64,000 nt of DNA from Burkholderiaceae bacterium. Lineage in GTDB: Bacteria > Pseudomonadota > Gammaproteobacteria > Burkholderiales > Burkholderiaceae_B. Shown here piece by piece: positions 36,167-54,155 of the stretch. The translations under genes were made by a program, and so were the position numbers. The stretch covers positions 81,664 to 145,663 of the forward strand of contig JAGOAJ010000005.1 in assembly GCA_017983955.1 (NCBI GenBank), written 5' to 3'. The notes beneath the pieces are model-generated. The model saw nothing but the letters and a program-made list of their open reading frames with translations, ran no database searches and was not told the DNA's origin. The stretch's first letter is position 1; every line of letters starts with the position of its first letter.

Positions 36167-36438
36167 TGGGCGCCACCGGCTTCACTTTGCATGTAAATAG
36201 CGCACATACAGGCCTATCTTTACAACACAACGATCATTTTTAATATCAGTAGAAACACCCATATAAATAGGCGGGTGCCGACTGTTGACATCAAGAACTG
36301 TAGTCCTATATAGTTCTAGCCGTAAGTACTGCAGTTCGCTAGTCAACACCACAAACAGTGGCACAAACGCCATCTCTACAAACGACGCGACACCACCAAA
36401 GCTCATCAAAATAGCCATCCCCACCGGAGGAGAACACC
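36167..36438 (+). promoter_or_regulatory. Intergenic region before the TRAP operon
   Basis: No gene is supported in these 272 bp. The region carries the TRAP promoter at 36285-36312 with an operator-like motif inside it, and a strong GGAGGAG ribosome site just before the GTG at 36439. The transcript leader would be about 120 bases. Confidence 0.6.
36285..36317 (+). promoter_or_regulatory. TRAP-operon promoter with embedded operator
   Basis: TTGACA (36285-36290) and TATATA (36307-36312) are near-consensus -35 and -10 boxes with a 16-bp spacer. Inside lies GAACTGTAGTCCTAT (36295-36309), which differs by one base in 15 from GAACTATAGTCCTAT in the aldehyde dehydrogenase promoter at 54005-54019. 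Inverted arms AGAACT and AGTTCT (36294-36317) straddle the -10 box. A repressor bound here would block RNA polymerase. Confidence 0.65.
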
Positions 36439-37449
36439 GTGATTTTGAAGTATCTAGGGAAGAATTTGGCAATCGCAGCAATTAGCTCAGCCTGCTTGCT
36501 GTCCGCCACCGCCGGTAGCGCCATCGCCGCCGAATTTACCGTGAAAGTAGCAAACGTTATGGCGCCCAGCCATGACACCAGTATCGCGGCCAACCACTTT
36601 GCCAAACTTGTAGCGGAAAAGTCTGAAGGCAAAATCAAAGTTCAGCACTACCCCGGTGGTCAATTGGGCAGTGACAAGGAAACCTTTGAAGCCGCCCAAC
36701 AAGGCATGCTGCAGATCGCCAGTGGATCATCAGCCAACCTAGTCACCATTACCCGTGCTTTTGAAGTACTACACCTGCCTTTTATCTTCGACGATCTAGA
36801 CCAGGTTCATAATGCTTTGAATTCACAGAAAGTGAAAGATCACATCAACGCCGAACTGGCCGACGTCGGTTTGCGTTGGCTGTTTACTTTCGATTATGGC
36901 TTCCGCGATATCAACACCTCGGAAAAGCAAGTCACCATGCCTGCCGACATGGCTGGCCTGAAGATACGCGCCTCGCGTTCTCCTTTGGAGCTGGCCGGTG
37001 TTAAGGCCTTTGGTGGCAGCGCCATCACAGTGGACTGGCCTGAAGTCTATAACGCCCTGCGTTTCAAGGTTGTGGACGGCGAAGCCCAACCATTTGGTAC
37101 CTTGGTCAGCGCCCGTCACCACGAAATCATCAAGAAAACAGTGGACGTAGATTGGCAATATTATGGTTTTGTTGGTGTCATCAGCACCAAGCAATGGGAA
37201 AAATACCCAGGGTGGGTAAAAGAAATCCTGGAAAGCGCAGCTAAAGAATCTGAAGCCTACCATAGACAAATTTGGGCTGAGGAAGATAAAAAAGCCCAGG
37301 AAGTTTATCTGAAAGCAGGCGGCGCCATCACCGAACTTACGCCAGATCAACGCGCAGAATGGATCAAACTGGGCAAAAGCACCTGGGCTGACTCAGGCGT
37401 TGCACAGACAACCATAGACTTGGTGCGTGAAGCCGCAACCGGCAAGTAG
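36439..37449 (+). CDS. dctP: TRAP transporter periplasmic solute-binding protein (DctP family)
   Basis: The 336-residue protein starts at GTG 36439, preceded by GGAGGAG. The signal peptide ends near residue 31 (AIAA before EFTVKVAN). The DctP pattern is clear: HYPGGQLGSDKETFEAAQQG, and GLKIRASRSP with the arginine that binds the carboxylate of ligands, followed by AGVKAFGGSAITVDWPEVYNA. TRAP systems import organic acids using the sodium gradient. It is the first gene of a three-gene TRAP operon whose promoter shares an operator with the catabolic operon to the right, so it probably imports that pathway's substrate. Confidence 0.93.
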   Translation: MILKYLGKNLAIAAISSACLLSATAGSAIAAEFTVKVANVMAPSHDTSIAANHFAKLVAEKSEGKIKVQHYPGGQLGSDKETFEAAQQGMLQIASGSSANLVTITRAFEVLHLPFIFDDLDQVHNALNSQKVKDHINAELADVGLRWLFTFDYGFRDINTSEKQVTMPADMAGLKIRASRSPLELAGVKAFGGSAITVDWPEVYNALRFKVVDGEAQPFGTLVSARHHEIIKKTVDVDWQYYGFVGVISTKQWEKYPGWVKEILESAAKESEAYHRQIWAEEDKKAQEVYLKAGGAITELTPDQRAEWIKLGKSTWADSGVAQTTIDLVREAATGK

Positions 37450-37535
37450 TCTTTTGAAGCAGCAAAGCGGCATAGCACCGCTTTGCTGACTGCGTCCACT
37501 GCTACGCACACACTTCCGTCAAGGATATTTAGATT

Positions 37536-38099
37536 ATGAACGTCAACACCGCAAGCTTACCTGTCGCTCCTGCTGTCGCAGCCATCAGTCTGCCCGAAAT
37601 CCCCGACTTGGCCATTGAGAAAATCATCACCCGAACAACCGGAGCAGCCGTTATTGGCTTAATAGGCGCCATGGTTGTTGTCATTTGGATTTCGGTTTAT
37701 ACCCGTTATGTTTCTTCTGCACCAATCTCCTGGGGCGAACAGGTCGCCAAATACCTAATGATATGGGCTGCTTTTTTGGGCGCCAGCTTGGGCCTACGGG
37801 AAGGCGCCCACATTTCAGTCAATATGCTGGTCGATATGCTGCCCGCCAAAGGCAGAAAGTTTTGTGCCGCCTGTGTAGTTCTGCTGAACATGATTTTCCT
37901 AAGCGTTTGCCTATATTACGGCACCATCTTCAGCTACAACGTCCGTAGCCACACAGACCCTCTGGTATGGGACATCAGCATGAGCCTGCCCTACGCTGCT
38001 ATTCCCGTAGGCTGCGCATTGATGATCTTGCAACTGCTGTTTGTCGTCAGAAAAGGCGTAGACAATGCGCTATCCAAAGATACCGCTAGCCTGTCCTGA
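37536..38099 (+). CDS. dctQ: TRAP transporter small permease (DctQ family)
   Basis: The 187-residue membrane protein has four hydrophobic segments; the motif ISWGEQVAKYLMIWAAFLGA (second and third segments, 71-90) and the LREGAHISVNML stretch are DctQ hallmarks. It forms the stator subunit together with DctM. An unusually long soluble N-terminus of about 38 residues rich in Ala, Val and Pro precedes the first segment. It starts 86 bp after the binding protein. Confidence 0.92.
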   Translation: MNVNTASLPVAPAVAAISLPEIPDLAIEKIITRTTGAAVIGLIGAMVVVIWISVYTRYVSSAPISWGEQVAKYLMIWAAFLGASLGLREGAHISVNMLVDMLPAKGRKFCAACVVLLNMIFLSVCLYYGTIFSYNVRSHTDPLVWDISMSLPYAAIPVGCALMILQLLFVVRKGVDNALSKDTASLS

Positions 38100-38183
38100 T
38101 TCCAGGCAGGTATTAGCACACACTTATCAACTTCAATTCAAGTCGGTATCGCGCCTCAAGGCTGCAATACCCCAGGAGGTATC

Positions 38184-39467
38184 ATGGGCATAGCTCTGAT
38201 AATCACATTCTTCACCGCATTGTCCCTGGCAGTCCCGGTCGCATTCGCGTTAGGCCTTGCCACCATTGTGGTCTTCATATTAATCGACCCTGAATTTCTA
38301 CTGCTGGTGCCTCAGCGCATTTTCACCGGCATCGACATGTTCGCACTGGTCGCCATTCCGTTCTTTATTCTGGCTGGCGAGCTGATGGGTGGATCCGGCA
38401 TACTGGATCGCATCCTGAACTTTGCACGCATGTCGGTAGGCCGTGTCCGTGGCAGCATGGGCCAGGTCACTGTTCTGGTTAGCATGATCTTTGGCTGGAT
38501 CAACGGCTCCGGCGTTGCCGGCGCCAGCGCTGTGGGCTCCATGTTGATCCCCAAAATGGCCAAGGAATATAAAAACCCTGGCTTTGCCTGTGCAGTAACT
38601 GCCTGTTCATCCACGGTTGGCCCTATCATTCCACCCAGCGTGCCGATGATCATTTATGCTCTGGTCGCCCAGAACGTTTCCGTAGGCGCGATGTTTGCCG
38701 CTGGCGTGGTTCCAGGCCTGATGATAGGCATAGGTATTATGGTTATCGTGTACTTCATTGCACGCAAGCGCGGCTACCCGGCTGATTCTGGCAACTACAC
38801 CTGGCGTGACAGGTTCGTGATCACCCAACGCTTCATGGTTGCCGCCTTTCTACCCGTCATCATGGTAGGCGGTATTATCCTAGGGATATTTACGCCGGTT
38901 GAGGCAGGCGCCGTAGCCGTGCTGTACGCCATCCTAGTGGGTCTGTTTGTTACGCGGTCTCTAAATTTTTCCATGATATGTGGGGCACTGCGCCGTACAG
39001 GCGTGATCTCGTCAGTCGTGTTCCTGATGATGGGCCTGGCCAACGTCGCCAGTTGGATATTGACCACAGAGCAAATCCCGCAAGTTGCCGCCGATGCTCT
39101 GTCCTCAATTACGTCTAACCCGCTAATTTTTCTGTTGCTGGTTAACGTGATTCTACTGATTGTCGGCCTATTTTTCGACACCGTAGCAGCGATGGTCATG
39201 TTTGGCCCACTGCTTATCCCTATGGCTGAAGCCTACGGCATAGACCCTCTGCAATTTGGCATGATTTTCACCGTCAACCTGATCATAGGCATGGTGACGC
39301 CACCAGTAGGATTGTGCCTGTTCATTGCGGCAGGTATAGGTAAGACACCGATAGAGCAAGTTATCAAAGAAAGTCTGCCATTTCTGGCCTGGCTACTGAC
39401 AGTACTGATGATAGTGACCTATGTACCATCGACTTATATGTGGGTGCCACGCATGCTGGGATACTAA
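38184..39467 (+). CDS. dctM: TRAP transporter large permease (DctM family)
   Basis: The 427-residue protein has about twelve hydrophobic segments and DctM hallmarks: FFILAGELMGGSGILDRILN, INGSGVAGASAVGSMLIPKM, CSSTVGPIIPPSVPMIIYAL and, in the second half, a matching repeat with GMVTPPVGLCLFIAAGI. It is the transport channel. AGGAGGT precedes the ATG. A bidirectional terminator follows the stop. Confidence 0.94.
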   Translation: MGIALIITFFTALSLAVPVAFALGLATIVVFILIDPEFLLLVPQRIFTGIDMFALVAIPFFILAGELMGGSGILDRILNFARMSVGRVRGSMGQVTVLVSMIFGWINGSGVAGASAVGSMLIPKMAKEYKNPGFACAVTACSSTVGPIIPPSVPMIIYALVAQNVSVGAMFAAGVVPGLMIGIGIMVIVYFIARKRGYPADSGNYTWRDRFVITQRFMVAAFLPVIMVGGIILGIFTPVEAGAVAVLYAILVGLFVTRSLNFSMICGALRRTGVISSVVFLMMGLANVASWILTTEQIPQVAADALSSITSNPLIFLLLVNVILLIVGLFFDTVAAMVMFGPLLIPMAEAYGIDPLQFGMIFTVNLIIGMVTPPVGLCLFIAAGIGKTPIEQVIKESLPFLAWLLTVLMIVTYVPSTYMWVPRMLGY

Positions 39468-39491
39468 GCGCCCAACATCAGGTACAAAACT

Positions 39492-39526
39492 AAAAAGCCA
39501 TGCCGTTTTTGCGGTATGGCTTTTTT
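39492..39526. terminator. Bidirectional terminator between the TRAP operon and the long minus-strand operon
   Basis: AAAAAGCCATGCCG pairs with CGGTATGGCTTTTTT (one mismatch) around a T-rich loop, with A-run before and T-run after, so it works in both directions. It ends the TRAP operon on the plus strand and the transcript that finishes with the GntR gene on the minus strand. Confidence 0.85.
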
Positions 39527-39529
39527 ATA

Positions 39530-40306
39530 CTAATCAGTCAGTTGACTAGGTATGCTTAATGTTCTTTCTGTGGGGGGAATAAAAAACCGTTGGAAGTAAA
39601 TGCACTTATCCAAGCCCATATAAGCCGCTACTGTAAGACACATGCCCATGGAACCAGGCTGGACACTAGTATGGCGGGCCACATCCTCATCAAAGCCTAC
39701 CATCCTTATAGAATGGTCCACCCTGGTAATGGGCATATTTAGTTCTTTGGTAATTTGTCGTTTGAAATTCAAGCCCTTGAGTTTTTCCAATGGCGTGTCC
39801 CATAACAAGGGAAACATATTTTTATGGATATAAAACCGTGTAAAGACGTTGAATTCGTCGTTGATATTGATTATCCGTTCAATTAGGGCTAATGGCCCAT
39901 CAGCAGGGTCAAAATAACGGGTTAGCTCGCCCTTATCTGGCACATAGTCACGGCTAAGAATAGTAGAGTAAACCGGTAAAAAACTGACGCCATCATCGGC
40001 AATAAAACGACAATGCCAAGGGTCTTGCACCTGCAGTTGGCGTCCTGCGACAAAGGTGCCCAGACCGTGTTGCCTGATAACGACGCCCTGATCAACCAGT
40101 ATGCGCAGCGCACGCTGCACGGTTCCCAGACTAAAAGGGGTAAGCTGCACTAGCTCGTCTTCGGTAGGCAGTTTATCGCCGGCCTTCCAAAGGCCGGACG
40201 TAATGCCTTCCATGATGGCATTCAATACCAGACGGTATTTTGGAATCCCTGAATGATTAACCCTGAACAAAGGGCTAAAAACATCAGGTTGCTGGTTTTC
40301 AATCAT
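39530..40306 (-). CDS. GntR-family regulator, paralog of the one at 47608
   Basis: The 258-residue regulator has an N-terminal winged helix (ELVQLTPFSLGTVQRALRIL as recognition region, near 49-68) and a UTRA-like effector domain with DPWHCRFIADDGVSFLPVYS. It shares blocks with the regulator at 47608, such as VQLTPFSLGTVQRALR, RQHGLGxFVA and PWHCRFxADDGV, so the two arose by duplication. It is the last gene of the minus-strand run, 121 bp after glcF and just before the terminator. The ribosome site is weak. The effector is probably an intermediate of the pathway. Confidence 0.85.
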   Translation of the reverse strand: MIENQQPDVFSPLFRVNHSGIPKYRLVLNAIMEGITSGLWKAGDKLPTEDELVQLTPFSLGTVQRALRILVDQGVVIRQHGLGTFVAGRQLQVQDPWHCRFIADDGVSFLPVYSTILSRDYVPDKGELTRYFDPADGPLALIERIININDEFNVFTRFYIHKNMFPLLWDTPLEKLKGLNFKRQITKELNMPITRVDHSIRMVGFDEDVARHTSVQPGSMGMCLTVAAYMGLDKCIYFQRFFIPPTERTLSIPSQLTD

Positions 40307-40427
40307 TTTCCACCACGCTATAAAAGTCTGGCTAACCTACCATCAACCCAATAGTAACAATCGCCACAGAAAGTTATCACATCCTGTGGGTTATTGGGGC
40401 TAGGGCATAGCCCAATTGCCAACTGGA

Positions 40428-41663
40428 TCAATTGGCCAAACGTGTGTCCAACAACTCTATCCAATGCCGAACCGGTGTACTGGTCCCCCCTTGCAAATGA
40501 GAAATACACCCTATATTGGCCGACGCTATCATAGCTCCACCGCCTTGGTGCAAGGCATGCAACTTATTTTGGCGCAGCGTTTTAGACATTTCAGGTTGAA
40601 AAATGGAGTAGGTTCCCGCCGACCCACAGCACAAATGCGCATCTTGGACAGGAGTCAGACGATAGTTCGCCGCCTTAAGCAGGTTTTCAACCGTGCCGGT
40701 GATTTTCAAGCCGTGCTGCAACGTACAGGGTGAGTGCCAGGCGACCGTTATTTCTTCATGCTGACGGGTCTGTAGTAAGTCGAGCAAAGCCGAGGCTTCA
40801 GCCGCAACAACCTGGCTGATGTCCAAAGTGAGTTCGCTAATGCGAGCTGCCTTGGCGGCATAAGCCGGATCATGCTGCAGCAGATGTCCATAGTCCTTAA
40901 CCTGCACGCCACAGCCTGACGCTGTCATGACCAACGCTTCTACCTGCTGGCTTTCAATCAATGGCCACCAGGCATCAATATTGCTGCGTGCGTTACCGCG
41001 CGCGCCATCATGATCATCCAGGTGAAAGCGCACCGCGCCGCAACAACCAGCGCCTGCAGCAGTCACCAATGAAACGCCCAGTGCATCAAGTACGCGTGCT
41101 GCCGCGGTATTAATACCCGGCTCCATGCTGGGTTGTACGCAACCCGCCAGCGCCAGCATCTTGCGAGCATGCCTGGCCTTAGGCCACAATCCAGCATCAC
41201 GCGCAACAGGCACTTTTTCTTTAAGTGCAGCAGGTAAAGCGCTGCGGGTTATCCTGCCAGCCTGCATTGCAGCGCCAAACAGCGCCGGACGCGCCACCAA
41301 CTCACGCACCGCCCAACGCAAAGCACGATCAGGCAAGGGCCGTTCTACCTGTTGGTCAACCACATGGCGGCCAATATCCGCCAGGCGACTGTAGTGCACA
41401 CCGGACGGGCATGTGGTTTCACAGGCACGACAGGTCAGACAACTATCCAGATGGCCTTGGGTGATGCTGGTGACCGCCTCACCTTCCAGCAGTTGTTTAA
41501 TCAGATAGATACGCCCACGCGGTCCGTCCAGTTCATCACCCGTCAACTGATAGGTAGGGCAAGTGGCCATGCAGAATCCGCAGTGCACACATTTATTAAT
41601 GATTTCTTCCGCCTCGGCGCCTTCAGGCGTATAGCGTATAAATTCAGCGAGTTGTGTTTGCAT
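40428..41663 (-). CDS. glcF: Glycolate oxidase iron-sulfur subunit
   Basis: The 411-residue protein has two 4Fe-4S ferredoxin motifs, C25-x2-C28-x2-C31-x3-C35 (CVHCGFCMATCPTY) and C75-x2-C78-x2-C81-x3-C85 (CLTCRACETTCPSG), followed by two CCG domains (AGCCGAVRFHLDD and HLCCGSAGTYSIF). It passes electrons from the flavin subunits to the membrane. The start lies two bases after the glcE stop with AAGGA inside glcE. It is part of glcDEF within the long operon. Confidence 0.93.
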   Translation of the reverse strand: MQTQLAEFIRYTPEGAEAEEIINKCVHCGFCMATCPTYQLTGDELDGPRGRIYLIKQLLEGEAVTSITQGHLDSCLTCRACETTCPSGVHYSRLADIGRHVVDQQVERPLPDRALRWAVRELVARPALFGAAMQAGRITRSALPAALKEKVPVARDAGLWPKARHARKMLALAGCVQPSMEPGINTAAARVLDALGVSLVTAAGAGCCGAVRFHLDDHDGARGNARSNIDAWWPLIESQQVEALVMTASGCGVQVKDYGHLLQHDPAYAAKAARISELTLDISQVVAAEASALLDLLQTRQHEEITVAWHSPCTLQHGLKITGTVENLLKAANYRLTPVQDAHLCCGSAGTYSIFQPEMSKTLRQNKLHALHQGGGAMIASANIGCISHLQGGTSTPVRHWIELLDTRLAN

Positions 41664-41665
41664 GC

Positions 41666-42772
41666 TTACAGTCCTTGATAAATTCGTCCGGGATTAAACA
41701 CGCCTGCAGGATCAAACGCCTGCTTAAGCTTACGGTGCAAAACCAACATACCGGGCTCCAGTGGATGAAAGACATCGCCCGCCCTGTCCTGCCCGCGAAA
41801 GCAGGTCGCATGGCCGCCCAGTTGCGTAGCACGCTGACGTATGATTTCCAAGTTTTGAGGGCCGGAAACCCAGCGTAAGGCGCCACCCCATTCGATAAGT
41901 TGCGAGCCCGGCAAACCCAGGCTGCCAGCAACGCTAGGCACTGACACCCGCCATATTTCCGTATCAGCATGCTTATTGAACCAGTCATGGCGTTGTTCCC
42001 GCACACCACGCCAGAACAGGTCAGCTTCGGTTCTGGCGATTAGTTCGCCGCCCAGTTGTTCTCGGGCCAGACGGGTAGCGGATTCAGCCCCAGACAACCT
42101 TAGCGTCAGTACATCATCGACCCAGACAGACGCTGAAATAGGCAAAGGACGACCACCCCAGGTATTCAGGCTGTGTATTGCCTGTTCCTCGGTCATGGCC
42201 AACCTCAAGGTCAGTTCAGATACAGGACGCGGCAGCACTTTTAGCGACACGTCCAGAACAATGCCCAAAGTTCCCAGGCTGCCCGCGATCAGACGCGAAA
42301 CGTCATAACCGGCCACGTTTTTCATAACCTGCCCGCCAAAGGTCTGTACGTCGCCCCTACCGTCCATCAGCTTGACGCCCAGTACAAAATCACGCACGGC
42401 GCCCACTGCCATGCGACGCGGACCAGACAGGCCAGCAGCCAAGCAACCCGCTACCGTGGCATCTTCGCCAAAATGCGGTGGTTCGAAAGCCAAAAACTGA
42501 TTCTGTCCGGCCAGCACTGCTTCAAGCTCGGCCAGCGAAGTCCCACCCTTTACCGTGATGACTAGCTCGGAGGGCTCATAGTCTTTGATGCCAGCATGCT
42601 GTCTGGTATCCAGAGGCTGTCCTTTCAGACAACGTCCATAAAAATCTTTTGTGCCGCCGCCACGCAGGCAGACTGAGCTGCCCTGAGCAGCTGCAGCCTG
42701 AACCACGTCAGACCACTGCTGGATAATGTCCATATTTTTGCTCATGATTTTGCTGGAGGCTGGTTGCCTCAT
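41666..42772 (-). CDS. glcE: Glycolate oxidase FAD-binding subunit
   Basis: The protein is 368 residues if started at 42772; MSKNMDII at 42745 is an alternative start and neither has a clear ribosome site. A PCMH-type FAD-binding domain spans about 20-195, with LRGGGTKDFYG (37-47), FGEDATVAGCLAAGLSGPRR and GGQVMKNVAGYDVSRLIAGS. GlcE is a short relative of GlcD needed for activity. It lies 45 bp after glcD. Confidence 0.92.
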   Translation of the reverse strand: MRQPASSKIMSKNMDIIQQWSDVVQAAAAQGSSVCLRGGGTKDFYGRCLKGQPLDTRQHAGIKDYEPSELVITVKGGTSLAELEAVLAGQNQFLAFEPPHFGEDATVAGCLAAGLSGPRRMAVGAVRDFVLGVKLMDGRGDVQTFGGQVMKNVAGYDVSRLIAGSLGTLGIVLDVSLKVLPRPVSELTLRLAMTEEQAIHSLNTWGGRPLPISASVWVDDVLTLRLSGAESATRLAREQLGGELIARTEADLFWRGVREQRHDWFNKHADTEIWRVSVPSVAGSLGLPGSQLIEWGGALRWVSGPQNLEIIRQRATQLGGHATCFRGQDRAGDVFHPLEPGMLVLHRKLKQAFDPAGVFNPGRIYQGL

Positions 42773-42817
42773 AAAGTTAGGTATGTCGCGCCATGGCGAT
42801 ACACCACGTGGAAATGC

Positions 42818-44335
42818 TCAGAATCTGGGCAGTTCAGGGTGGGACAACTGCCCGGCATGCACATGCATGCTGCCAAATTCCGCGCAACGATTCAGGGTAG
42901 GAATCAGTTTTCCAGGGTTAAGCAAGCCACGCGCATCAAATGCCGTCTTGATACGAAAAAATTGCAAGCGTTCTTTTTCGCCAAACTGGGCACACATCTG
43001 ATTGATCTTTTCGATACCTACTCCATGCTCGCCAGTAATGGTGCCGCCCAACTGTACCGACAGCTCAAGAATTTCGCCGCCAAACGCTTCAGCACGCTGC
43101 AGCTCATCGCCCTTGCTGGCATCAAACAGTATCAGCGGATGCATATTCCCATCGCCCGCATGAAATACATTCAGGCAGCGCAGTCCGTATTTCTCTTCCA
43201 TGGCGTGTATGGCTGTCAGCATGTCACCCAAACGTTTCCGGGGAATGGTGCCGTCCATGCAGTAATAGTCCGGTGACAACCTACCCGCAGCAGGGAAAGC
43301 CGCCTTGCGCCCGGCCCAAAATCTGAGCCGTTCTTCTTCGCTATTGGACACAGTGAATTTTGTTGCGCCACTGTCTTCCAGAACACGGCAGACTCGAGCA
43401 ATTTCTTCTTCTACTTCGTCAGGCGTACCATCTGATTCACACAACAGTATGGCTTTTGCATCTAAAGGATAGCCTGCCTTTACGAATTCCTCGACTGCCA
43501 CCGTAGCGGCCTGATCCATCATTTCCAGGCCTGCCGGTATGATGCCGGCCGCAATAATGGACGCAACCGCCTGCCCTGCCTTGACTTCGCTATCGAAGCT
43601 GGCCAACACGCAGCGCGCTGCCTGAGGCTTAGGAATCAGCTTGACGGTAATCTCGGTCATGACTGCCAACATACCTTCTGAACCCGTCATTAGCGCCAGC
43701 AAATCATAGCCAGGAGCGTCCAAGGCATGGTTACCCACCTCGATGATCTCACCTTCTATGGTGACTGCCCGTACCCGCAACAGATTATGCACAGTCAGCC
43801 CATACTTCAGACAATGAACGCCACCGGCATTCTCCGCTACGTTACCGCCAATGGAACAGGCGATTTGCGACGACGGATCGGGCGCATAATACAGATCATA
43901 GGGCGCAGCAGCCTGGGAAATGGCCAAATTACGCACCCCAGGCTGAACCACTGCTGTGCGTGCATGAGGATCAAGGTGCACTATCTTGTTAAAGCGCGCC
44001 ATAGACAGCAACACACCATGCGCATGGGGCATGGCTCCACCTGATAAACCCGTACCCGCACCACGCGCCACCACGGGGACACCCAAGCGCTCACATATCT
44101 TAAGCACAGCCACCACCTGAGCCTCGGTTTCAGGGATAGCTACCGCCAAGGGCAGCATACGATAAGCCGCAAGGCCGTCACATTCGTAAGGACGCAGCGC
44201 CTCGTCATGATGCAACAAGCAGCGTTCGTCCAATACCGCTGCCAGCTCGCGTATCAGCTCGGCCTTGTTCACATATGAAAAATCGTGCTCTATTTCGCCA
44301 TTGATGGCGGCCGTGCGCAACTGGCTTGCTTGCAT
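42818..44335 (-). CDS. glcD: Glycolate oxidase catalytic subunit (FAD-linked)
   Basis: The 505-residue flavoenzyme oxidises glycolate, and often D-lactate, to the 2-oxo acid. FAD-binding motifs VPVVARGAGTGLSGGAMPHA (90-109) and CSIGGNVAENAGGVHCLKYG are clear, and the C-terminal domain has NVFHAGDGNMHPLILFD and GGTITGEHGVGIEK, which hold the metal- and substrate-binding His residues. GGAGAT precedes the ATG. It starts 11 bp after the SulP permease and so is cotranscribed with the sulfatase. Confidence 0.94.
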   Translation of the reverse strand: MQASQLRTAAINGEIEHDFSYVNKAELIRELAAVLDERCLLHHDEALRPYECDGLAAYRMLPLAVAIPETEAQVVAVLKICERLGVPVVARGAGTGLSGGAMPHAHGVLLSMARFNKIVHLDPHARTAVVQPGVRNLAISQAAAPYDLYYAPDPSSQIACSIGGNVAENAGGVHCLKYGLTVHNLLRVRAVTIEGEIIEVGNHALDAPGYDLLALMTGSEGMLAVMTEITVKLIPKPQAARCVLASFDSEVKAGQAVASIIAAGIIPAGLEMMDQAATVAVEEFVKAGYPLDAKAILLCESDGTPDEVEEEIARVCRVLEDSGATKFTVSNSEEERLRFWAGRKAAFPAAGRLSPDYYCMDGTIPRKRLGDMLTAIHAMEEKYGLRCLNVFHAGDGNMHPLILFDASKGDELQRAEAFGGEILELSVQLGGTITGEHGVGIEKINQMCAQFGEKERLQFFRIKTAFDARGLLNPGKLIPTLNRCAEFGSMHVHAGQLSHPELPRF

Positions 44336-44346
44336 AATGATCTCCT

Positions 44347-46083: not shown

Positions 46084-46104
46084 AAGGCGGGCGGCTCCTG
46101 CCCC

Positions 46105-47562
46105 TTAGTTAAACTTATGCTCGGCGCCAGGTGCTGGACTGAAGCCCAGATCACCACGCGCTACAACAGCTTCACGTCCGCCGTTAGCTTCCAGCAGTTC
46201 GCTTTGACGCGCACGGGCACGCTGATCGACTTCGACTGGATCGCACATCGCGTAAAGTTTTTGTTTGCTTTCAGCGATAACTGCCGCGTACTCGGGGTTA
46301 GCGGCCAGGTCTTTCAGCTCTTCAGGATCGGCTTCCAAATCGAAAAGCTGCTCTGGGTAATGCACATAGTAAATATACTTGTACTTGCCATTACGTATCA
46401 TGAACGCGCCTGTGACCGAACCCATGCCGTGATATTCAGTCATGACGTTGCGTTCTGGCACTTCGCCTTCGGCAATCTGGAACAAGGATATACCAGGCAG
46501 TCCGTCTTTCAGGCTAGGATCTGTTTCACCCACGGCGTCATAAACAAAAGGCATTACGTCGACATGGCTGACAGGCGTCGTAATGACCTTGCCTTCAGGG
46601 ATGCCCTTGCCTGTAATGATCAGGGGCACGCCAGCGGCTTCCTCGAACATGGTGGACTTACCCCACATTCCACGACTGCCCAGGTTATCTCCGTGATCCG
46701 ATGTATACACAATGCGCGTATCGTCGGTCAGATTCAAATCATCCAGCGTAGTCAGCAATTTACCTACGTTCTCGTCCAGGAAAGAACACAAACCGTAGTA
46801 GCCAGCCAAAGCTTTTTTACGCTTTTCAGCATCGAAGTAATCGTCGTAGTTAAAGCTGTTGCGATAATCGTTCTGATAAGGGTGATCCGGCCTTTCCGAT
46901 TTTTCATACAGTTTGGGCAACGGCAAATCACGGTTGTAATATTTATAGAAATGCTCGGGCGGCGCAGTCAGCGGAAAATGCGGACTGACCAATGAGACAA
47001 ACAGCACCCAGGGCTTATCGGTATAACGCGGTGCTTCCTCGCGCAACCAAATCTGCGCGCGCGATATAATTTCGCGATCATAGAACGTGTATTGGCTTTC
47101 ACCGGGGCCGGCCATGTCAGCCATTTTGTATGCACCCTGGCGTACCGGCAGATCGCTACGAACCAAACCCATCAAGTCGCCCTTGCCGCCAACGATGTGC
47201 ATGGGCACTATTTCTTCGCTAAAACCGTGATCGCCGCCGTAGTCGCGAAAGTGCAGTTTACCGATAGACACCACACGGTGATCACGCTCGCGCAGCTTAT
47301 GATGCCAGCTGGGTATAGCACCATCGTAGGCGTCGGCATTATCCCAATAACCAATCTGATGGATATACTTACCCGTCGCAAACGACGCGCGCGCCGGTAT
47401 GCACACAGGACTGGCACAGTAGGCTGATGAAAAACGCGTACCGCGTGCAGCCAGCGAATCCAGATTGGGGGTTTCTACAAACTCATGCCCATAACAACCC
47501 AGCGCCTTGGGCGAGTGTTCGTCCGACATGATGATCAGAAGGTTCTGTCCTGAAATATCCAT
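46105..47562 (-). CDS. Type I sulfatase (choline-sulfatase-like)
   Basis: The 485-residue enzyme hydrolyses sulfate esters. The formylglycine signature C54-I-P-A-R58 sits in YCASPVCIPARASFATGKYI, so the cysteine form needs a formylglycine-generating enzyme, which is not in this window. Metal-site residues are seen in IIMSDEHSPKALGCYGHEF and YTSDHGDNLGSRGMWGKSTM. The start at 47562 (MDISGQN) has GAGGA eight bases upstream; an earlier TTG-type start is less likely. There is no signal peptide, so it acts in the cytoplasm. The general form is that of choline-O-sulfatase (BetC) relatives, but no betaine genes accompany it. Confidence 0.85.
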   Translation of the reverse strand: MDISGQNLLIIMSDEHSPKALGCYGHEFVETPNLDSLAARGTRFSSAYCASPVCIPARASFATGKYIHQIGYWDNADAYDGAIPSWHHKLRERDHRVVSIGKLHFRDYGGDHGFSEEIVPMHIVGGKGDLMGLVRSDLPVRQGAYKMADMAGPGESQYTFYDREIISRAQIWLREEAPRYTDKPWVLFVSLVSPHFPLTAPPEHFYKYYNRDLPLPKLYEKSERPDHPYQNDYRNSFNYDDYFDAEKRKKALAGYYGLCSFLDENVGKLLTTLDDLNLTDDTRIVYTSDHGDNLGSRGMWGKSTMFEEAAGVPLIITGKGIPEGKVITTPVSHVDVMPFVYDAVGETDPSLKDGLPGISLFQIAEGEVPERNVMTEYHGMGSVTGAFMIRNGKYKYIYYVHYPEQLFDLEADPEELKDLAANPEYAAVIAESKQKLYAMCDPVEVDQRARARQSELLEANGGREAVVARGDLGFSPAPGAEHKFN

Positions 47563-47607
47563 TGTTCTGTCCTCTAGATACAACAACAAAAATGATTAAT
47601 CTGGCGC

Positions 47608-48390
47608 TTAAAGCGACACAGGTGTTCTTTCAAAAAACTGCAACGAGCGCTGACCAGGCGGTATATAAAACTCCTGGTAGTACACGGTCAGGTTGCTGCC
47701 GGCACGCGCAATCGCTTGCATGAACATGCCGCTGGAACCTGGTTCAAGGCCTATCATCTGACACGCCTCGTCATCAAAGCGATCAATACGTGTTTGATGC
47801 ACAATTTCAGTGATGGGCAACTGGCATTGCGCGGCTATCATTTTCTTGACGTTGGCGCCGTGCAATTGCTCCATGGGTATATCCCACAGCATCTTCAACA
47901 GCATGGAACTGCCATAAAAGCGGCTGAATATATCGAACTCGTCCGCAATATTAATAATGCGATCCAGTTGTATGACCACGGTATCGTCTATACTCAGATG
48001 CTGGCTCCAAGGGCCGGAATGGCTAACCAGCTCACGCCGTATGGCTTTCGAATAAATTGGCACGGTACCGACGCCATCATCGGCCACAAACCGGCAGTGC
48101 CAAGGGTTCTCCAGACGACGCGGGCTTTGCGCCACGAAACTTCCCAGGCCATGCTGGCGCACCACTAGTCCCTGATTCACCAGGTCGCGTAAAGCGCGTT
48201 GCACAGTACCCAGACTAAAGGGCGTCAGCTGCACAAACTCCTCTTCGGCCGGAAGTCGATCACCAGGCCCCCAAACACCTTCCCGTATCGCTTCAAGCAC
48301 GGCATTGACCACCCGCTGATACTTGGGAAGACCAGTCCGTTCAGACTGCCACAGGGCGGCAAAAATTTCTTGTTGCCGTTGGGCTGTCAT
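47608..48390 (-). CDS. GntR-family regulator, paralog of the one at 39530
   Basis: The 260-residue protein has the winged helix with EFVQLTPFSLGTVQRALRDL and the effector domain with NPWHCRFVADDGVGTVPIYS. It is similar to the regulator at the far end of the operon over the full length. Its start overlaps the end of the GMC oxidoreductase gene by four bases, so it is made with the operon it may control. Confidence 0.86.
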   Translation of the reverse strand: MTAQRQQEIFAALWQSERTGLPKYQRVVNAVLEAIREGVWGPGDRLPAEEEFVQLTPFSLGTVQRALRDLVNQGLVVRQHGLGSFVAQSPRRLENPWHCRFVADDGVGTVPIYSKAIRRELVSHSGPWSQHLSIDDTVVIQLDRIINIADEFDIFSRFYGSSMLLKMLWDIPMEQLHGANVKKMIAAQCQLPITEIVHQTRIDRFDDEACQMIGLEPGSSGMFMQAIARAGSNLTVYYQEFYIPPGQRSLQFFERTPVSL

Positions 48391-49988
48391 GACGCCGGCC
48401 CTGCATTAAGGATCAAATCAGCGGCCTTTTCACCAATAACCATGGATCCGGCATTCGTGTTGCCTGATAACAGCAAGGGCATGATAGAAGCGTCCGCCAC
48501 GCGTAAACCCGCTATCCCCCTGACACGCAAGCTAGTGTCAACAACCGAGTCCGCGTCATTACCCATGCGGCAAGTGCCCACCGGATGGAATATTGTGGTG
48601 CCCTGCTCGCGAACAAACCGTATCATGTCCTCGTCAGTCTTCATCGAAGGACCGGGACGAAACTCTTCGGCAATATAGGGCTGCATCGCCGACGACTCTA
48701 CCAAGCGACGGGTCAGCTGGATACCCGCCAACATGGTGTCGCGGTCTTCCTGCTCGGAAAAATAATTTGGCTGTATCAAAGGTGCGGCCAAAGGATCAGC
48801 CGACTTCAAGCCGACATAACCACGACTTTTTGGCCGCAACTGGCACATAGAAATCGTGAAGCCCGAAAAATCGTGAGGCTTGCCAGCCGCCATATCAGCG
48901 CTGATCGTGCCAAAGTGAAACTGCACATCTGGACGTGTTGCCTCGGGGCGCGCGCGAGCGAACATGCCACCCAACTGTATGCCCGCAGCCACCGGACCTG
49001 CTTTAAAAAATATCCAACGCATGCCAATAAGCGCCTGTCCCCACCAAGTGCGCACGCTGTCATTGGTTGTGATCGGTTTAGTGCATTTGTAGATCAACCG
49101 GACCTGTAAGTGATCCTGTAAGTTCTTACCCACCTGCGGCAAATCATGTACCAGGGGGATATCAAATTTAGCGAGCTCATCAGCGGCGCCTATGCCTGAC
49201 AGCATCAACAACTGTGGCGACTGGAAAGCGCCGGCTGAGAGTATGACTTCTTTGGCGGCACGCGCTTCGACCACCTTGCCATTTTGCATGTAACGCACGC
49301 CAACAGCACGTCTGCCTTCCATGATCAGCCCCAAGGCACGTGCCTCGGTCTCGATAGTCAGGTCTGGATTTCCACGCAAGGGCCGCAAATACCCTTTGGC
49401 CGACGAGCAGCGCAAGCCATTGCGGGTGGTCAACTGGTAATAACCAACACCTTCTTGCTTAGCGCCATTAAAGTCGTCAGTTCTGGGTATGCCGTTCTCT
49501 TCACCAGCACGGATAAACGCCTCGACCAGCTCGTGCTTGCCGCGTATATTGGATACACCCAGACGACCATCACCACCATGGTATTCACTGGCGCCACGTT
49601 CATTTCGCTCGGAGCGCTTGAACAGAGGCAGAATATCGCGCCATCCCCAGCCGTCGTTGCCCAATTTTTCCCAGTCGTCGAAGTCCTCGGCCTGACCCCG
49701 CACGTACACCAATCCATTGATAGAGCTTGAACCACCCAGGGTCTTGCCTCGTGGCTGATACACATTACGGCCATTTAGCTCTGGAACCGGTTCGGACTCG
49801 AACTGCCAGTTGTAGTTGGGATTGAACATCGTCTTGCCATAGCCTATGGGGATATGCACCCAGATGTTCTTGTCCGCAGGACCTGCCTCAAGCAGCAGCA
49901 CAGAGCCACCGCCATTTTCAACCAAACGTCCGGCCAGGGCACAGCCTGCAGAACCAGCGCCTACAACAATATAGTCAAATGTACGCAT
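48387..49988 (-). CDS. GMC-family FAD-dependent alcohol dehydrogenase (choline dehydrogenase-like)
   Basis: The start is set at 49988 (MRTFDYIVVGAGSAGCALAG): GGAGTAG is eight bases upstream and the FAD motif GAGSAG is at its normal place; an upstream extension of 64 residues has no family character. GMC signatures GKTLGGSSSINGLVYVRG and GAFQSPQLLMLSGIG are complete, and the catalytic His is in FHPVGTCRMG with the partner Asn in GNTNAGSMVIGEKA. The 533-residue enzyme oxidises a primary alcohol to the aldehyde. It is preceded by the Rieske reductase and followed by a regulator. Confidence 0.9.
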   Translation of the reverse strand: MRTFDYIVVGAGSAGCALAGRLVENGGGSVLLLEAGPADKNIWVHIPIGYGKTMFNPNYNWQFESEPVPELNGRNVYQPRGKTLGGSSSINGLVYVRGQAEDFDDWEKLGNDGWGWRDILPLFKRSERNERGASEYHGGDGRLGVSNIRGKHELVEAFIRAGEENGIPRTDDFNGAKQEGVGYYQLTTRNGLRCSSAKGYLRPLRGNPDLTIETEARALGLIMEGRRAVGVRYMQNGKVVEARAAKEVILSAGAFQSPQLLMLSGIGAADELAKFDIPLVHDLPQVGKNLQDHLQVRLIYKCTKPITTNDSVRTWWGQALIGMRWIFFKAGPVAAGIQLGGMFARARPEATRPDVQFHFGTISADMAAGKPHDFSGFTISMCQLRPKSRGYVGLKSADPLAAPLIQPNYFSEQEDRDTMLAGIQLTRRLVESSAMQPYIAEEFRPGPSMKTDEDMIRFVREQGTTIFHPVGTCRMGNDADSVVDTSLRVRGIAGLRVADASIMPLLLSGNTNAGSMVIGEKAADLILNAGPAS

Positions 49989-50007
49989 TTTTTGTCTACT
50001 CCAATTC

Positions 50008-50967
50008 TTATAAATCCAGCAATAGCGCTTCTGTGCCTGGGCCTGCGCAGCAAACCAGCACATATTCATTTTTTTCTTCTTCGGATAGGACAAAGTCGTT
50101 ATGGTCGGGCTTGCCACTGAAATAGCGTACTTTGCACGTCCCACATAAGCCGGATTCACAGGAAGACTCGCACGCAACACCCGCTTGCCTGATAGCGGCC
50201 AGTATGGTTTGACCCGGCTCTACCGTAAGCACCTTGTCGGATTTGGCTAAACGTATCTGCACCCCTTCAGAAGGGGCGCTGGCAGCCAATTTTTCGGCAA
50301 GCGATGGATCCACCCCAAAATATTCGTAGTGCACGGCATGCTCGGGCCAATGCGCAGCCGCCTTTTGCACGGCCTTCATGAATCCAGGCGGGCCGCAAAA
50401 ATAAAGATGTACGCCTTCTTCATATTTTTCTAGTTTGGTGACAATATCCAAGCCGTTTTTAGGGTCTCCGCCATCATGGTGCAGAAAAGCCTGGTCGCCA
50501 GCGACCAATGACTGCAAACGCGAACGGAACGCCGTACGCTCTGGTTTCTGGGTGCAATAATGCAACTCGAAACTTTGCTGGTCGCGTTGCAACTGATCCA
50601 CCATAGACAGCAAGGGCGTTATGCCTATACCGCCGGCCAGCAACACGTTATGCCGCGCACCCGGTTTCAAAGGGAACAAATTGCGCGGTTCGGACACATC
50701 CAACATGTCGCCGGCACGCAGACTGGCGTGCATGGCTTTGGACCCGCCCCGACCCGCGTGGTCCTCCAGCACCGCGATACGATAATGCTTGCGACTACCA
50801 GGAGAGTCACAAAGCGAGTATTGCCTTGTCAACCCTCCTGGCACACTGACATCAATGTGCGCTCCCGCCTCGAAGGGTGGAAGATCTTTACCAGAGGGAT
50901 CAACCAATTCGAACGACCGTATATTCTCCGCTTCATACGTAATAGAGCGTACAAGTAATGTCAACAT
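50008..50967 (-). CDS. Oxygenase reductase with C-terminal 2Fe-2S ferredoxin (VanB/PDR type)
   Basis: The 319-residue protein has a flavin-binding domain (HIDVSVPGGLTRQYSLCDSP near 37-56), an NAD domain (LLAGGIGITPLLSMVDQL) and a C-terminal plant-type ferredoxin with CESSCESGLCGTC and a fourth Cys near the end. This order is typical of phthalate dioxygenase reductase and vanillate demethylase reductase. It starts 18 bp after the Rieske oxygenase gene and supplies its electrons. Confidence 0.92.
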   Translation of the reverse strand: MLTLLVRSITYEAENIRSFELVDPSGKDLPPFEAGAHIDVSVPGGLTRQYSLCDSPGSRKHYRIAVLEDHAGRGGSKAMHASLRAGDMLDVSEPRNLFPLKPGARHNVLLAGGIGITPLLSMVDQLQRDQQSFELHYCTQKPERTAFRSRLQSLVAGDQAFLHHDGGDPKNGLDIVTKLEKYEEGVHLYFCGPPGFMKAVQKAAAHWPEHAVHYEYFGVDPSLAEKLAASAPSEGVQIRLAKSDKVLTVEPGQTILAAIRQAGVACESSCESGLCGTCKVRYFSGKPDHNDFVLSEEEKNEYVLVCCAGPGTEALLLDL

Positions 50968-50985
50968 GGCTATTTACTCCTGTGC

Positions 50986-52419
50986 TTAAACGGCGAGACT
51001 GGCGGCGTTTCTTTCAGCTTCTTTACCTACGCCATCATCAACTTCGTCCAACTTAGCGCGCACAAAAGCATCACGTTGCGCAGTAGGCAGATCGTCAGCA
51101 CTGCGCATGATATCCATGACTACTTTGCCCAAGTCCAAGATGACCTTACGGTCTTCAGCTGGGTTTCCCTTGGTGGGCGCATGCAGCACAGAGTCTTGCG
51201 TATATAGCGAAAGAGGCTCGCCGGCAGTCAGCCATTCCTGCTGTTTGGCATCGGGGGCGGTTTTTCCTTGCACCGCATCACGCAACAGTTTGCGGAACAT
51301 ATAGACACCAACATCAGAGGTACCTGGGTTTTCCAGTGCATGAACGGCGATTGGACGCTGGCTGGTCAACGCTTCCCAGTCACCTGGCGCGCGTTGGCCT
51401 TCTTCGTAAGTACGATCACCAGTCTGACCGACGATAAAGTCAATTTTGTCCACACCACAGTCTTCTATGGTGCCCACGCCTTCTGGGTCCACTTCGCTGT
51501 TGTAATGACGCCAGCCAAAAATAATCATGTTCGTGTCATCAACAGGCACGTGCCAACGGGTGCAACTGGAGGTAGAGTGACGTACATACAGCGCGCTAGG
51601 AACAAGCGAGCCAATTTGCAAGTAGTTGGGCAGATTCATTTCTGTCATCCGCACCCACACCTTGTCATTTTCCAGACGTCGGCCAGCAATAAAAGCAATT
51701 CCGTTACCGCTGCGCGTAGTCTGCCACTGCATAATAGGCAGGGATTCCATACCCACTATCGACGTGCCTTCAGCCGCAGCATCCACACCATCCGCAACCA
51801 TGCTGTTGTGCAATACGGCGGTATGCATGTGATCCATGATGTTCTCGTGAACCTGCAACCAGTTACATGGATAGACGTTCGAGAATGCAGCTAACTTAGT
51901 ACCCTTGGGCAAGGAGTAAGAGTCGTACTCTGGGAAGGGTGGGCACTTCTCAGGAGGGCCCATATAGGCAAACACCAAGCCATCACGCTCAAAAGCGGGA
52001 TAAGCACCTTGGCTGACCGTTTCCTTCAAGCGCGTATCATCAAGCTCACAGGGCGCCTCAAGCAGAGTCCCGTCTACATCGAAATGCCAGCCGTGATAGC
52101 AACAAGAGATACCTACGTCACGGATAACCCCATATTCCAGCGATGCGCCACGGTGCGCGCAATGGCGGTGCAGCACACCAACCGTACCCCTTTTATCCCT
52201 AAAGGCAACCAGGTCCTCACCCATAATACGAATGGCCTTGGGCACATTGGTCAGCTCTTCAGATAAACATACGGGCTGCCAGTACAGGCGCATGTACTCG
52301 CCCATCGGCGTGTTCGGCATAGTGCTTGAAAGTTCGGTATCGTGTTTCGGAACTTCACGCTTACGGTATCCGGAAAACTTCAATTGTTGCTCGACCATGG
52401 GGGCGCTTGCATTGCTCAT
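50986..52419 (-). CDS. Rieske non-heme iron oxygenase, alpha subunit (phthalate dioxygenase-like class)
   Basis: The 477-residue protein starts at 52419 (MSNASAPMVEQQ) with AAGGAGAT upstream. The Rieske 2Fe-2S ligands are C87-x-H89 and C106-x2-H109, and the mononuclear iron ligands are H199 and H204 in MDHMHTAVLH, with D196 as the bridging Asp. Conserved GEDLVAFRD and CPPFPEYD regions place it in the phthalate-type, alpha-only class that performs ring hydroxylation or O- and N-dealkylation. With the reductase 18 bp downstream it forms a two-component system. The substrate is unknown; a demethylase or ether-cleaving role fits the neighbouring alcohol and glycolate oxidases. Confidence 0.9.
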   Translation of the reverse strand: MSNASAPMVEQQLKFSGYRKREVPKHDTELSSTMPNTPMGEYMRLYWQPVCLSEELTNVPKAIRIMGEDLVAFRDKRGTVGVLHRHCAHRGASLEYGVIRDVGISCCYHGWHFDVDGTLLEAPCELDDTRLKETVSQGAYPAFERDGLVFAYMGPPEKCPPFPEYDSYSLPKGTKLAAFSNVYPCNWLQVHENIMDHMHTAVLHNSMVADGVDAAAEGTSIVGMESLPIMQWQTTRSGNGIAFIAGRRLENDKVWVRMTEMNLPNYLQIGSLVPSALYVRHSTSSCTRWHVPVDDTNMIIFGWRHYNSEVDPEGVGTIEDCGVDKIDFIVGQTGDRTYEEGQRAPGDWEALTSQRPIAVHALENPGTSDVGVYMFRKLLRDAVQGKTAPDAKQQEWLTAGEPLSLYTQDSVLHAPTKGNPAEDRKVILDLGKVVMDIMRSADDLPTAQRDAFVRAKLDEVDDGVGKEAERNAASLAV

Positions 52420-52512
52420 TGATATCTCCTTTGTAGATAGCATTGCGATATTTCAATAGTTTTTTAGACTGCGGTTTACACTCTGGACGCCGCAAACAGA
52501 GCGGCGCCCTGC

Positions 52513-53967
52513 TTACATCTCGACGTTCAACTGGCTGACAAAACGGGAATGCAGATAAGCATCCAGTCCCTCGGGGCCACCTTCGTAACCCAGACCGCTT
52601 TCTTTCATTCCACCTATAGGCGCATCAGCCAGCGCGGGCACAAAGTTGTTGATGCCTATCCATCCGGCCTCGATACGCTCTGAAAATTCGGCCGAGCGCT
52701 CCATGCGATTCGTGAATGCGTACGCTGCCAGGCCCAGATCCTTTTTATTGGCCTGTGCAATTACCTCTTCGAACGATTCGAAGGTCATGATGGGCGCGAT
52801 CGGGCAGAATGGTTCTTCATGCAACACCTCGGCGCCAGCAGGAACCTGGCTTAATACCGTGGGTGCAAAGTAGTGGCCGACATCGCCAACGCGGGCTCCG
52901 CCGTGCTGGATACGAGCGCCAGTGTCGCAGGCCTGCTCGACAAATCTCTGAGCAGCCTGCAGACGCCGCACGTTGTTCAGCGGCCCCATCTGCACACCCT
53001 GCTGCATGCCATCGCCCACCTGAATTTGCGACGCATACTTCACAAACGACTCAGTAAAGGCTGTGGCAAGACTGGCATGCACGTAAAAGCGGCTGGGCGA
53101 CAAACACACCTGACCCGCATTGCGGTACTTGAATGCCACGCACATGCGCGCTACGCGATCAGCGTCCACATCGTCAAAAACAACGACAGGCGCATGACCG
53201 CCAAGCTCCATGGTTACAGGCTTGAGCTGCTGGGCGGCCAGCGTGGCCAACAGTCGACCAACCCCCACCGAACCGGTAAACGACACTTTGCGTATAACAG
53301 GCGATTTGATGACACGCTCGGAGATCTCCGCAGGAACGCCATACAGCAAATTCACCACGCCAGCGGGTACGCCAGCGTCCGCGAACGCCCGTACCAGCTC
53401 AATACATATGGCCGGCGTTTCTTCGGCGGGCTTGAGCACCACAGTACAGCCTGCAGCCAAGGCGGCAGCCAGTTTGCGGGCAGCCAGCACAGCAGGAAAG
53501 TTCCAGGGCACGAAAGCGGCCACCGGGCCAATAGCCCGTTTAATTGAGGACTGCGACAACAGCGGCTCACGCGGTGGAAGAACCCGCCCGTAAGCACGCT
53601 TACCCTCTTCAGCACACCAGAGTATGGTCTCAATGACACGGTCCAGTTCGCCGTGTGAGTCTGCCAGCGGCTTGCCGTTTTCCAATGTCAACATGACGGC
53701 AAGACGATCCCGACGCTGATCAATAAGACCTGCAGCGCGCTTCAGGATGGCCTCGCGAGCCCAGGCACTGGTTGCTGACCAGGCAGCAAACGTCGAGTCG
53801 GCTGCGCTTAGTGCATCATCAATGTCAGCGGCGGTAGCCATGGGCAACTGACCCAGGATTTGCCCCGTTGACGGGTTAACAACGGCCAAAGTGTTACGGC
53901 CTTCGACGCCACGCCACTCACCGGCGACGTAAAGCTCAAGCTGTTGGGGATATTGCGCTGTATTCAT
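52513..53967 (-). CDS. NAD(P)-dependent aldehyde dehydrogenase (succinate-semialdehyde-type)
   Basis: The 484-residue enzyme has the ALDH motifs PWNFPAVLAARKLAAALAAG, FTGSVGVGRLLATLAAQQLK, the Glu in ELGGHAPVVVFDDVD and the catalytic Cys in NAGQVCLSPSRFYV. The general pattern is that of the succinate-semialdehyde/glycolaldehyde group. In context it oxidises the aldehyde made by the GMC enzyme. It is the first gene of the long minus-strand run, 93 bp before the Rieske gene, and its promoter carries a 26-bp inverted repeat. Confidence 0.93.
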   Translation of the reverse strand: MNTAQYPQQLELYVAGEWRGVEGRNTLAVVNPSTGQILGQLPMATAADIDDALSAADSTFAAWSATSAWAREAILKRAAGLIDQRRDRLAVMLTLENGKPLADSHGELDRVIETILWCAEEGKRAYGRVLPPREPLLSQSSIKRAIGPVAAFVPWNFPAVLAARKLAAALAAGCTVVLKPAEETPAICIELVRAFADAGVPAGVVNLLYGVPAEISERVIKSPVIRKVSFTGSVGVGRLLATLAAQQLKPVTMELGGHAPVVVFDDVDADRVARMCVAFKYRNAGQVCLSPSRFYVHASLATAFTESFVKYASQIQVGDGMQQGVQMGPLNNVRRLQAAQRFVEQACDTGARIQHGGARVGDVGHYFAPTVLSQVPAGAEVLHEEPFCPIAPIMTFESFEEVIAQANKKDLGLAAYAFTNRMERSAEFSERIEAGWIGINNFVPALADAPIGGMKESGLGYEGGPEGLDAYLHSRFVSQLNVEM

Positions 53968-54004
53968 GACAGGTGGGCCTCTGTTATTGCATTAACGTAT
54001 GGTC

Positions 54005-54035
54005 GAACTATAGTCCTATGAAGGACTATAGTCAA
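54005..54035 (-). promoter_or_regulatory. Promoter of the catabolic operon with perfect inverted repeat
   Basis: Read on the minus strand, TTGACT and TATAGT form a promoter with a 17-bp spacer. Exactly across it lies a perfect inverted repeat, 54007-54032, with arms ACTATAGTCCT and AGGACTATAGT and a four-base loop; each arm contains the palindrome ACTATAGT. It is 40 bp upstream of the aldehyde dehydrogenase start. The 15-base portion GAACTATAGTCCTAT recurs with one change in the TRAP promoter. Confidence 0.7.
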
Positions 54036-54131: not shown

Positions 54132-54155
54132 TTGTATTGACACGTATTAATACAA
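54132..54155. promoter_or_regulatory. Second inverted repeat, candidate operator/promoter of the GntR-acnX operon
   Basis: TTGTATT and AATACAA (54132-54138 and 54149-54155) are inverted, and the interior contains the palindrome GTATTAATAC (54144-54153). TTGACA at 54137-54142 could be the -35 box for the GntR gene 44 bp downstream, though no ideal -10 is seen. Confidence 0.4.

Follow-up and report, generated by a model that had tools for sequence, protein, structure and literature searches.

In the window analysed here, a stretch of 64,000 nucleotides from a Burkholderiaceae bacterium (GCA_017983955.1, contig JAGOAJ010000005.1, positions 81,664 to 145,663), the promoters of a TRAP transporter operon and of a catabolic operon headed by an aldehyde dehydrogenase (ALDH) gene share an operator-like element. 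Sequence comparison makes it very probable that one or both of two paralogous GntR-family proteins, GntR1 and GntR2, repress the two operons as one local regulon through the copies of this element at 36297-36314 and 54007-54032. The computations described below directly show the element, where it lies in the promoters, how it is conserved and that it co-occurs with the GntR1/GntR2 clade. The features concerned are the following.

36285..36314, plus strand: TRAP operon promoter, TTGACA-N18-TATAGT (promoter scan, 11 of 12 consensus letters)
36297..36314, plus strand: operator copy 1, ACTGTAGTCCTATATAGT, conserved in the TRAP promoters of related genomes G101 and G052
36439..39467, plus strand: TRAP operon dctP-dctQ-dctM (36439-37449, 37536-38099, 38184-39467)
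39530..40306, minus strand: GntR1, HutC-type (GntR helix-turn-helix plus UTRA domain), recognition helix SLGTVQRA; candidate repressor of both operons
47608..48390, minus strand: GntR2, paralog of GntR1, recognition helix SLGTVQRA; candidate repressor of both operons
48387..53967, minus strand: head of the catabolic operon, with ALDH (52513-53967), Rieske oxygenase (50986-52443), reductase (50008-50967) and GMC oxidoreductase (about 48387-50012)
54007..54032, unstranded: operator copy 2, ACTATAGTCCT-ATGA-AGGACTATAGT, a fuller palindrome than the TRAP copy
54035-54007, minus strand: catabolic (ALDH) operon promoter, TTGACT-N17-TATAGT (promoter scan, 10 of 12 consensus letters)

Both operators overlap the spacer and the -10 hexamer of their promoters. 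The -10 hexamer of the TRAP promoter forms the last 6 bases of operator copy 1, and the same promoter bases can alternatively be read as TTGACA-N16-TATATA; in G101 and G052, too, the operator follows a -35-like box, and the G101 counterpart of the ALDH promoter can be read by eye as TTGACA-N18-TATAGT. The first-pass annotation of this DNA had reported two 15-mers, GAACTGTAGTCCTAT (36295-36309) and GAACTATAGTCCTAT (54005-54019), equal in 14 of 15 bases and each lying within a promoter. Both 15-mers were recovered with that degree of identity, and the promoter scan placed each inside a sigma-70-like promoter. The perfect 26-bp inverted repeat described in the same annotation at the ALDH site proved perfect in its two 11-bp arms (54007-54017 and 54022-54032), but not in the 4 unpaired bases between them.

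The element can be read either as an 18-bp dyad, ACTATA-GTCCTA-TATAGT, or as a 26-bp palindrome, ACTATAGTCCTAT/ATAGGACTATAGT. In the latter reading the ALDH site agrees with the ideal palindrome ACTATAGTCCTATATAGGACTATAGT at 24 of 26 positions and differs at 2, and the TRAP site comprises the left half (12 of 13) and the centre only. The outer arms of the TRAP copy, AGAACTGTA and TATAGTTCT (36294-36302 and 36309-36317), are 89% complementary, which the inverted-repeat measurement returns as 9-bp arms with one mismatch and a 6-base spacer. At the tctC gene of G101 (L032, 8630-8667) the operator has perfect 16-bp arms around GTCCTA, longer than those of the window sites, and these 16 paired bases in each arm speak for the 18-bp reading. 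Downstream of the TRAP operator there is also a weaker inverted copy (arms of 13 nt at 36295-36307 and 36325-36337, 85% complementary), which may be an auxiliary half-site.

Taken by itself, the match between the two sites is real but weak as evidence. In the whole window, 424 pairs of 15-mers separated by 1 kb or more are equal in at least 14 of 15 positions. Its intergenic set (29 segments, 4,486 bases, derived from a hand-picked list of open reading frames, or ORFs) contains 4 such pairs, the TRAP/ALDH pair among them, where simulation gave a mean of 0.5 and a maximum of 2 (60 simulations), so that the 15-mer match alone is suggestive and its original description as strong internal evidence was overstated. 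A scan of the genome (3.32 Mb, 62 contigs) for further copies of GAACTRTAGTCCTAT at no more than 2 mismatches, which had been proposed as a check, returned both sites and a single third match, compared to 17 matches for the reversed control. The third match lies inside a 302-aa ORF, LysR-type by eye, and was dismissed as chance. At up to 3 mismatches, the 18-mer occurs in this genome (G000) solely at the TRAP and ALDH promoters.

The proposal that uptake and catabolism are jointly controlled is strongly supported by conservation across species, in G101, G052 and others. The form of the operator conserved across relatives is ACTATAGTCCTATATAGT, with the form ACTATAGTCCTATGCAGG at the ALDH promoter of G101, and both the TRAP and the ALDH promoters carry the operator in G101 and G052, which represent two other species. 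These two genomes are among the 14 of 200 that hold relatives of GntR2 (47608) at E<=1e-30; a scan of genome contigs with GntR2 yielded one locus, in Allopusillimonas ginsengisoli SBSA. When the 18-mer was scanned against the family at up to 3 mismatches, 58 of 268 genomes had a match and the reversed control matched even more often, and only sites with 0-1 mismatches were therefore counted as evidence. Such sites occur at 14 places in 10 of the 268 genomes, and 9 of them are exact 18-mers. They are located at the TRAP operon (this genome, G101 and G052), the ALDH operon (G052), a tctC gene (G101 and G052), a sulfatase gene (G052), an ABC transporter region (G091), a clade gntR gene (G095 and G115) and, in G208, G210, G211 and G235, before the MFS gene that heads an MFS-ALDH-Rieske-reductase-GMC-GntR2-sulfatase operon (the names MFS, TctC and ABC were assigned by Pfam). 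The last four genomes thus present a transporter swap, with MFS at the head of the catabolic operon and one clade regulator per genome. In G052, none of the relatives of the three GntR regulators of the window was detected in the 20-kb stretch holding the sulfatase and tctC copies, which look like unlinked members of the regulon.

The shared letters might instead reflect two similar sigma-70 promoters (TATAGT -10 hexamers and -35 boxes) and chance, as the TATAGT with which both operators end and the 4 equally good intergenic 15-mer pairs of the window would allow. Against this, GTCCTA recurs across genera and in either orientation with respect to transcription, and the 9 exact 18-mers of the family all fall in genomes with a clade GntR. 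GTCCTA, which lies between the half-sites, is not known as a promoter element. Conservation as read from these sequences already contradicts this explanation, which we consider extremely improbable.

GntR1 and GntR2 are 45% identical and have equal recognition helices. Both match the GntR winged helix PF00392 (51.3 and 54.1 bits, respectively; cut-off 27), and GntR1 matches UTRA PF07702 at 28.7 bits (cut-off 23.8), with GntR2 borderline over the same region (22.8 bits, E 8.8e-5). Their clade (E<=1e-30) is present in 21 of 268 genomes, including all 10 genomes with a 0-1 mismatch site. This co-occurrence of operator and clade is significant by genome (Fisher p 8e-13) and by genus (5 of 5 within 13 of 43, p 0.0013), the latter value being the fairer one because the genomes are related. 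Furthermore, 10 of the remaining 11 clade genomes have a weaker operator variant adjoining the regulator, as identified at lenient limits (up to 4 mismatches, or a 12-mer core). Among more distant relatives in which the regulator is divergent from the sulfatase gene, the operator centre is ACTATATAGT or close to it; no published pairing of ACTATATAGT with a GntR protein was found in the openly readable literature, subscription papers lying outside the search. The operator associated with GntR1 and GntR2 is ACTATAGTCCTATATAGT and not the canonical HutC form GTMTAKAC.

A weight matrix was built from 14 sites of other species, leaving aside G210, G211 and G115 as near-duplicates, together with weaker sites from more distant relatives. 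In the window it assigned 30.4 to position 36297, 22.0 to 54007 and 19.8 to 54015 (other strand); the next-best position scored 4.6, and none of 200 random windows exceeded 15.3. A plasmid search matched 6 of 72,556 records, at 28-33% identity, and an order-wide search 7 of 399 genomes, the new ones being 4 distant genomes of one genus of another family. Dyads of the AATACTATGAAGTATT type lie near three of those four distant regulators, and a 4-mismatch site near the fourth.

Several observations weigh against this assignment of the operator to GntR1 and GntR2. The co-occurrence counts related genomes, and 2-mismatch sites split evenly, with the clade in G091 and G270 and no clade in G001 and G280. 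At the lenient limits, no site can be recognised next to the clade GntR of G063, or next to the second, more remote matches in G014 (C11), G042 and G065 (C91). The weight-matrix sites were found with patterns derived from the window and are not fully independent of it, so that the matrix demonstrates agreement and rarity rather than blind prediction; the regulator co-occurrence test does not share this dependence. In addition, the layouts of the two window sites differ (an 18-bp dyad at TRAP, a 26-bp dyad at ALDH), gntR1 might have a separate promoter in the 121 bp that precede it (40307-40427), and from sequence either of the two paralogs present could be the one that binds.

The first-pass annotation had named as the probable repressor of both operons a third regulator, GntR3, which together with the genes downstream of it makes up the following features.

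54132..54155, unstranded: a different operator, TTGTATTGACAC/GTATTAATACAA, arms 83% complementary, in the GntR3-acnX promoter; putative GntR3 site
54199..54972, plus strand: GntR3, HutC-type, recognition helix SRVTARQA; here assigned to the aconitase-X genes
55019..56670, plus strand: aconitase X large subunit and swivel subunit, downstream of GntR3

As a HutC-type regulator divergent from the catabolic operon and 231 bp away from it, GntR3 might bind both sites and control both operons, and the GntR3-aconitase X pair resembles GntR1 and GntR2 in type and is adjacent to their system in the window. However, GntR3 relatives (E<=1e-45) occur in only 5 of 268 genomes, this one counted, and in 5 of 5 aconitase X lies downstream on the same strand, immediately here and at about 1.1 kb in the other 4 (G061, G022, G052 and G070). 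All 5 also present a dyad of the TTGTATTGAC...TTAATACAA type upstream of GntR3, unlike the shared-operator system; in the window this dyad (54132-54155) is about 100 bp from the shared operator, within the same 231-bp intergenic stretch. The shared operator was not found in the 300 bp upstream of each of the other 4 GntR3 relatives, where the best 18-mer match has 7-9 mismatches. Conversely, no relative of GntR3 or acnX was found in the fetched operon stretches of G101, G052, G208, G210, G211 and G235, although the operator is present in them. In G052, the GntR3 and GntR1/GntR2 families reside on different contigs, each with its own operator. The recognition helices are dissimilar as well, SRVTAR of GntR3 corresponding to SLGTVQ in GntR1 and GntR2.

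The aconitase X linkage, the separate dyad and the 7-9 mismatches upstream of its relatives in 4 other genomes led us to reject GntR3 as the regulator of the shared operator, a role that we regard as highly improbable; the GntR3-aconitase X pair, with a dyad of its own, is read as a separate regulon. Judging from these comparisons, the operator is most likely read by GntR1, GntR2 or both, rather than by neighbouring GntR3.

The distribution of the two paralogs bears on whether they would act jointly and make the regulon responsive to two signals, either by forming a heterodimer or by competing, as separate inputs, for one operator. A search of the openly readable literature for heterodimers of paralogous UTRA-domain GntR repressors returned no paper. 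Joint action would be in keeping with their identical recognition helices, with their joint presence at one locus (this genome, G101, G052 and G091), and with an 18-bp operator that is non-palindromic in its middle. Against it, a single GntR2-like clade member accompanies the exact 18-mer in G208, G210, G211 and G235, and one clade match each was obtained in G095 and G115 too (the regulator tree omitted G211, G095, G261 and the second G270 match). These single-regulator genomes weaken the heterodimer as a necessity, and we consider joint action unlikely. A more specific version, in which GntR1 and GntR2 with diverged UTRA domains share one SdhR-like operator and integrate two metabolite signals by competition or heterodimer formation, is put forward tentatively, as possible but rather unlikely; if it is true, the relatives with one copy would hold a one-signal form of the circuit.

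For the regulon under GntR1 and/or GntR2, we infer a mechanism that comprises binding, repression over activation, membership of the regulator genes in the operon, an inducer and an acting paralog. GntR1 and/or GntR2 would bind ACTATAGTCCTAT-ATAG at both operators, and the bound repressor would sit over spacer and -10 hexamer in the two sigma-70 promoters, keeping off TRAP uptake and catabolism (ALDH, Rieske, reductase, GMC, sulfatase and the following genes). Since the operator fills the spacer and -10, simple occlusion is the most likely mode. A substrate or intermediate would release the repressor by acting on its UTRA domain. Given the 4-base overlap of GntR2 with GMC and the 121 bp that separate GntR1 from the preceding glc genes, gntR1 and gntR2 are probably both transcribed from the repressed catabolic promoter itself, and the circuit would include negative feedback because the repressor genes lie among the genes controlled. 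Sequence alone is compatible with a regulator that activates from these sites, but the position of the operator over spacer and -10 in both promoters is a place for steric repression, and NagR, a member of the HutC subfamily, reportedly blocks transcription (PMC4333415); we thus hold activation to be quite improbable.

The comparison with known systems draws on PMC4494728. Canonical HutC regulators (HutC, PhnF, NagR) resemble GntR1 and GntR2 in having a winged helix plus UTRA and in controlling uptake and catabolism locally, but the GT-N4-AC core of their operator GTMTAKAC is absent from the shared operator. SdhR (a member of the HutC subfamily), FarR and NagQ are described there as exceptions to this form, and a non-canonical operator therefore does not exclude the HutC subfamily. 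The closest known layout is that of SdhR, whose operator TCTTATGTCTTATATAAGACATAAGA is a 26-bp compound palindrome centred on a TAT/ATA step, as at the ALDH site. The operator sequence is not the same, with 8 of 13 letters equal between the SdhR half-site and ACTATAGTCCTAT, and SdhR differs in its central-metabolism targets, where the window operator serves local uptake and catabolic genes. PMC4494728 reports GntR operators with an additional half-site at 7-12 nt from the centre. In the shared operator the outer ACTA/TAGT box is 9 bp from the central CTAT/ATAG, within this range, and conservation of the left outer box is similar to that of the centre, in contrast to the weaker extra half-sites of the operators in that source.

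A separate SdhR-like gene (GntR + UTRA) is present on contig C46 of this genome; it is the best GntR2 match there after GntR1 (31% over 92 residues) and has the recognition helix SQGTVRKA, as opposed to SLGTVQRA. SdhR-type palindromes at G000:C46:31782, C18:30108 and C10:5032 stand upstream of this GntR-UTRA gene itself and of the genes for isocitrate lyase and aconitase B.

The remaining genes of the catabolic operon are the following.

46105..47589, minus strand: S1-type sulfatase, choline-sulfatase-like
40428..46083, minus strand: glcF, glcE, glcD and sulP, between the sulfatase gene and gntR1

The order ALDH-Rieske-reductase-GMC is kept in G101, G052, G208, G210, G211 and G235. The G052 relative of the sulfatase is 72% identical and has its own operator, on a contig other than that of the regulators. 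No relative of sulP or glcDEF was found in the matching region of G101, and this block is apparently an insertion into the catabolic operon or a loss from it. Among solved structures, the best relative of the TRAP receptor is an isethionate-binding DctP and that of the sulfatase a choline sulfatase, and the two best matches of the Rieske protein carry the names Rieske domain protein and phthalate 4,5-dioxygenase; these sequence matches are leads on the pathway substrate and no more. We found no paper joining 5 of the 6 components of this gene set (sulfatase, Rieske, ALDH, GMC, TRAP, GntR), subscription literature again being outside the search.

Directly upstream of the TRAP promoter, a tRNA-Ser gene (anticodon CGA, 36028-36117) marks a possible island boundary. 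In G091 (L078, 6418-7534), an ALDH remnant (residues 1-58 only) runs into an IS481-type transposase ORF, and a 2-mismatch operator copy is kept 38 bp upstream of the remnant. The same transposase ORF adjoins GntR1 in L035.

Taken together, these data describe a regulon of an ordinary kind, whose operator is non-canonical and SdhR-like and whose regulators form a paralogous pair. They correct a guess based on gene neighbourhood, in that the divergent regulator is probably not the reader of the shared operator, and the upstream regions of other genomes separate two GntR systems inside one 231-bp intergenic stretch. Furthermore, they supply a motif that can be tested for a GntR clade whose operator is non-canonical, and they tie an uncharacterised sulfatase/Rieske/GMC/ALDH pathway to its transporters, TRAP and MFS, with TctC or ABC genes in relatives. 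The window also offers a naturally occurring example in which two paralogous repressors may use one operator in common.

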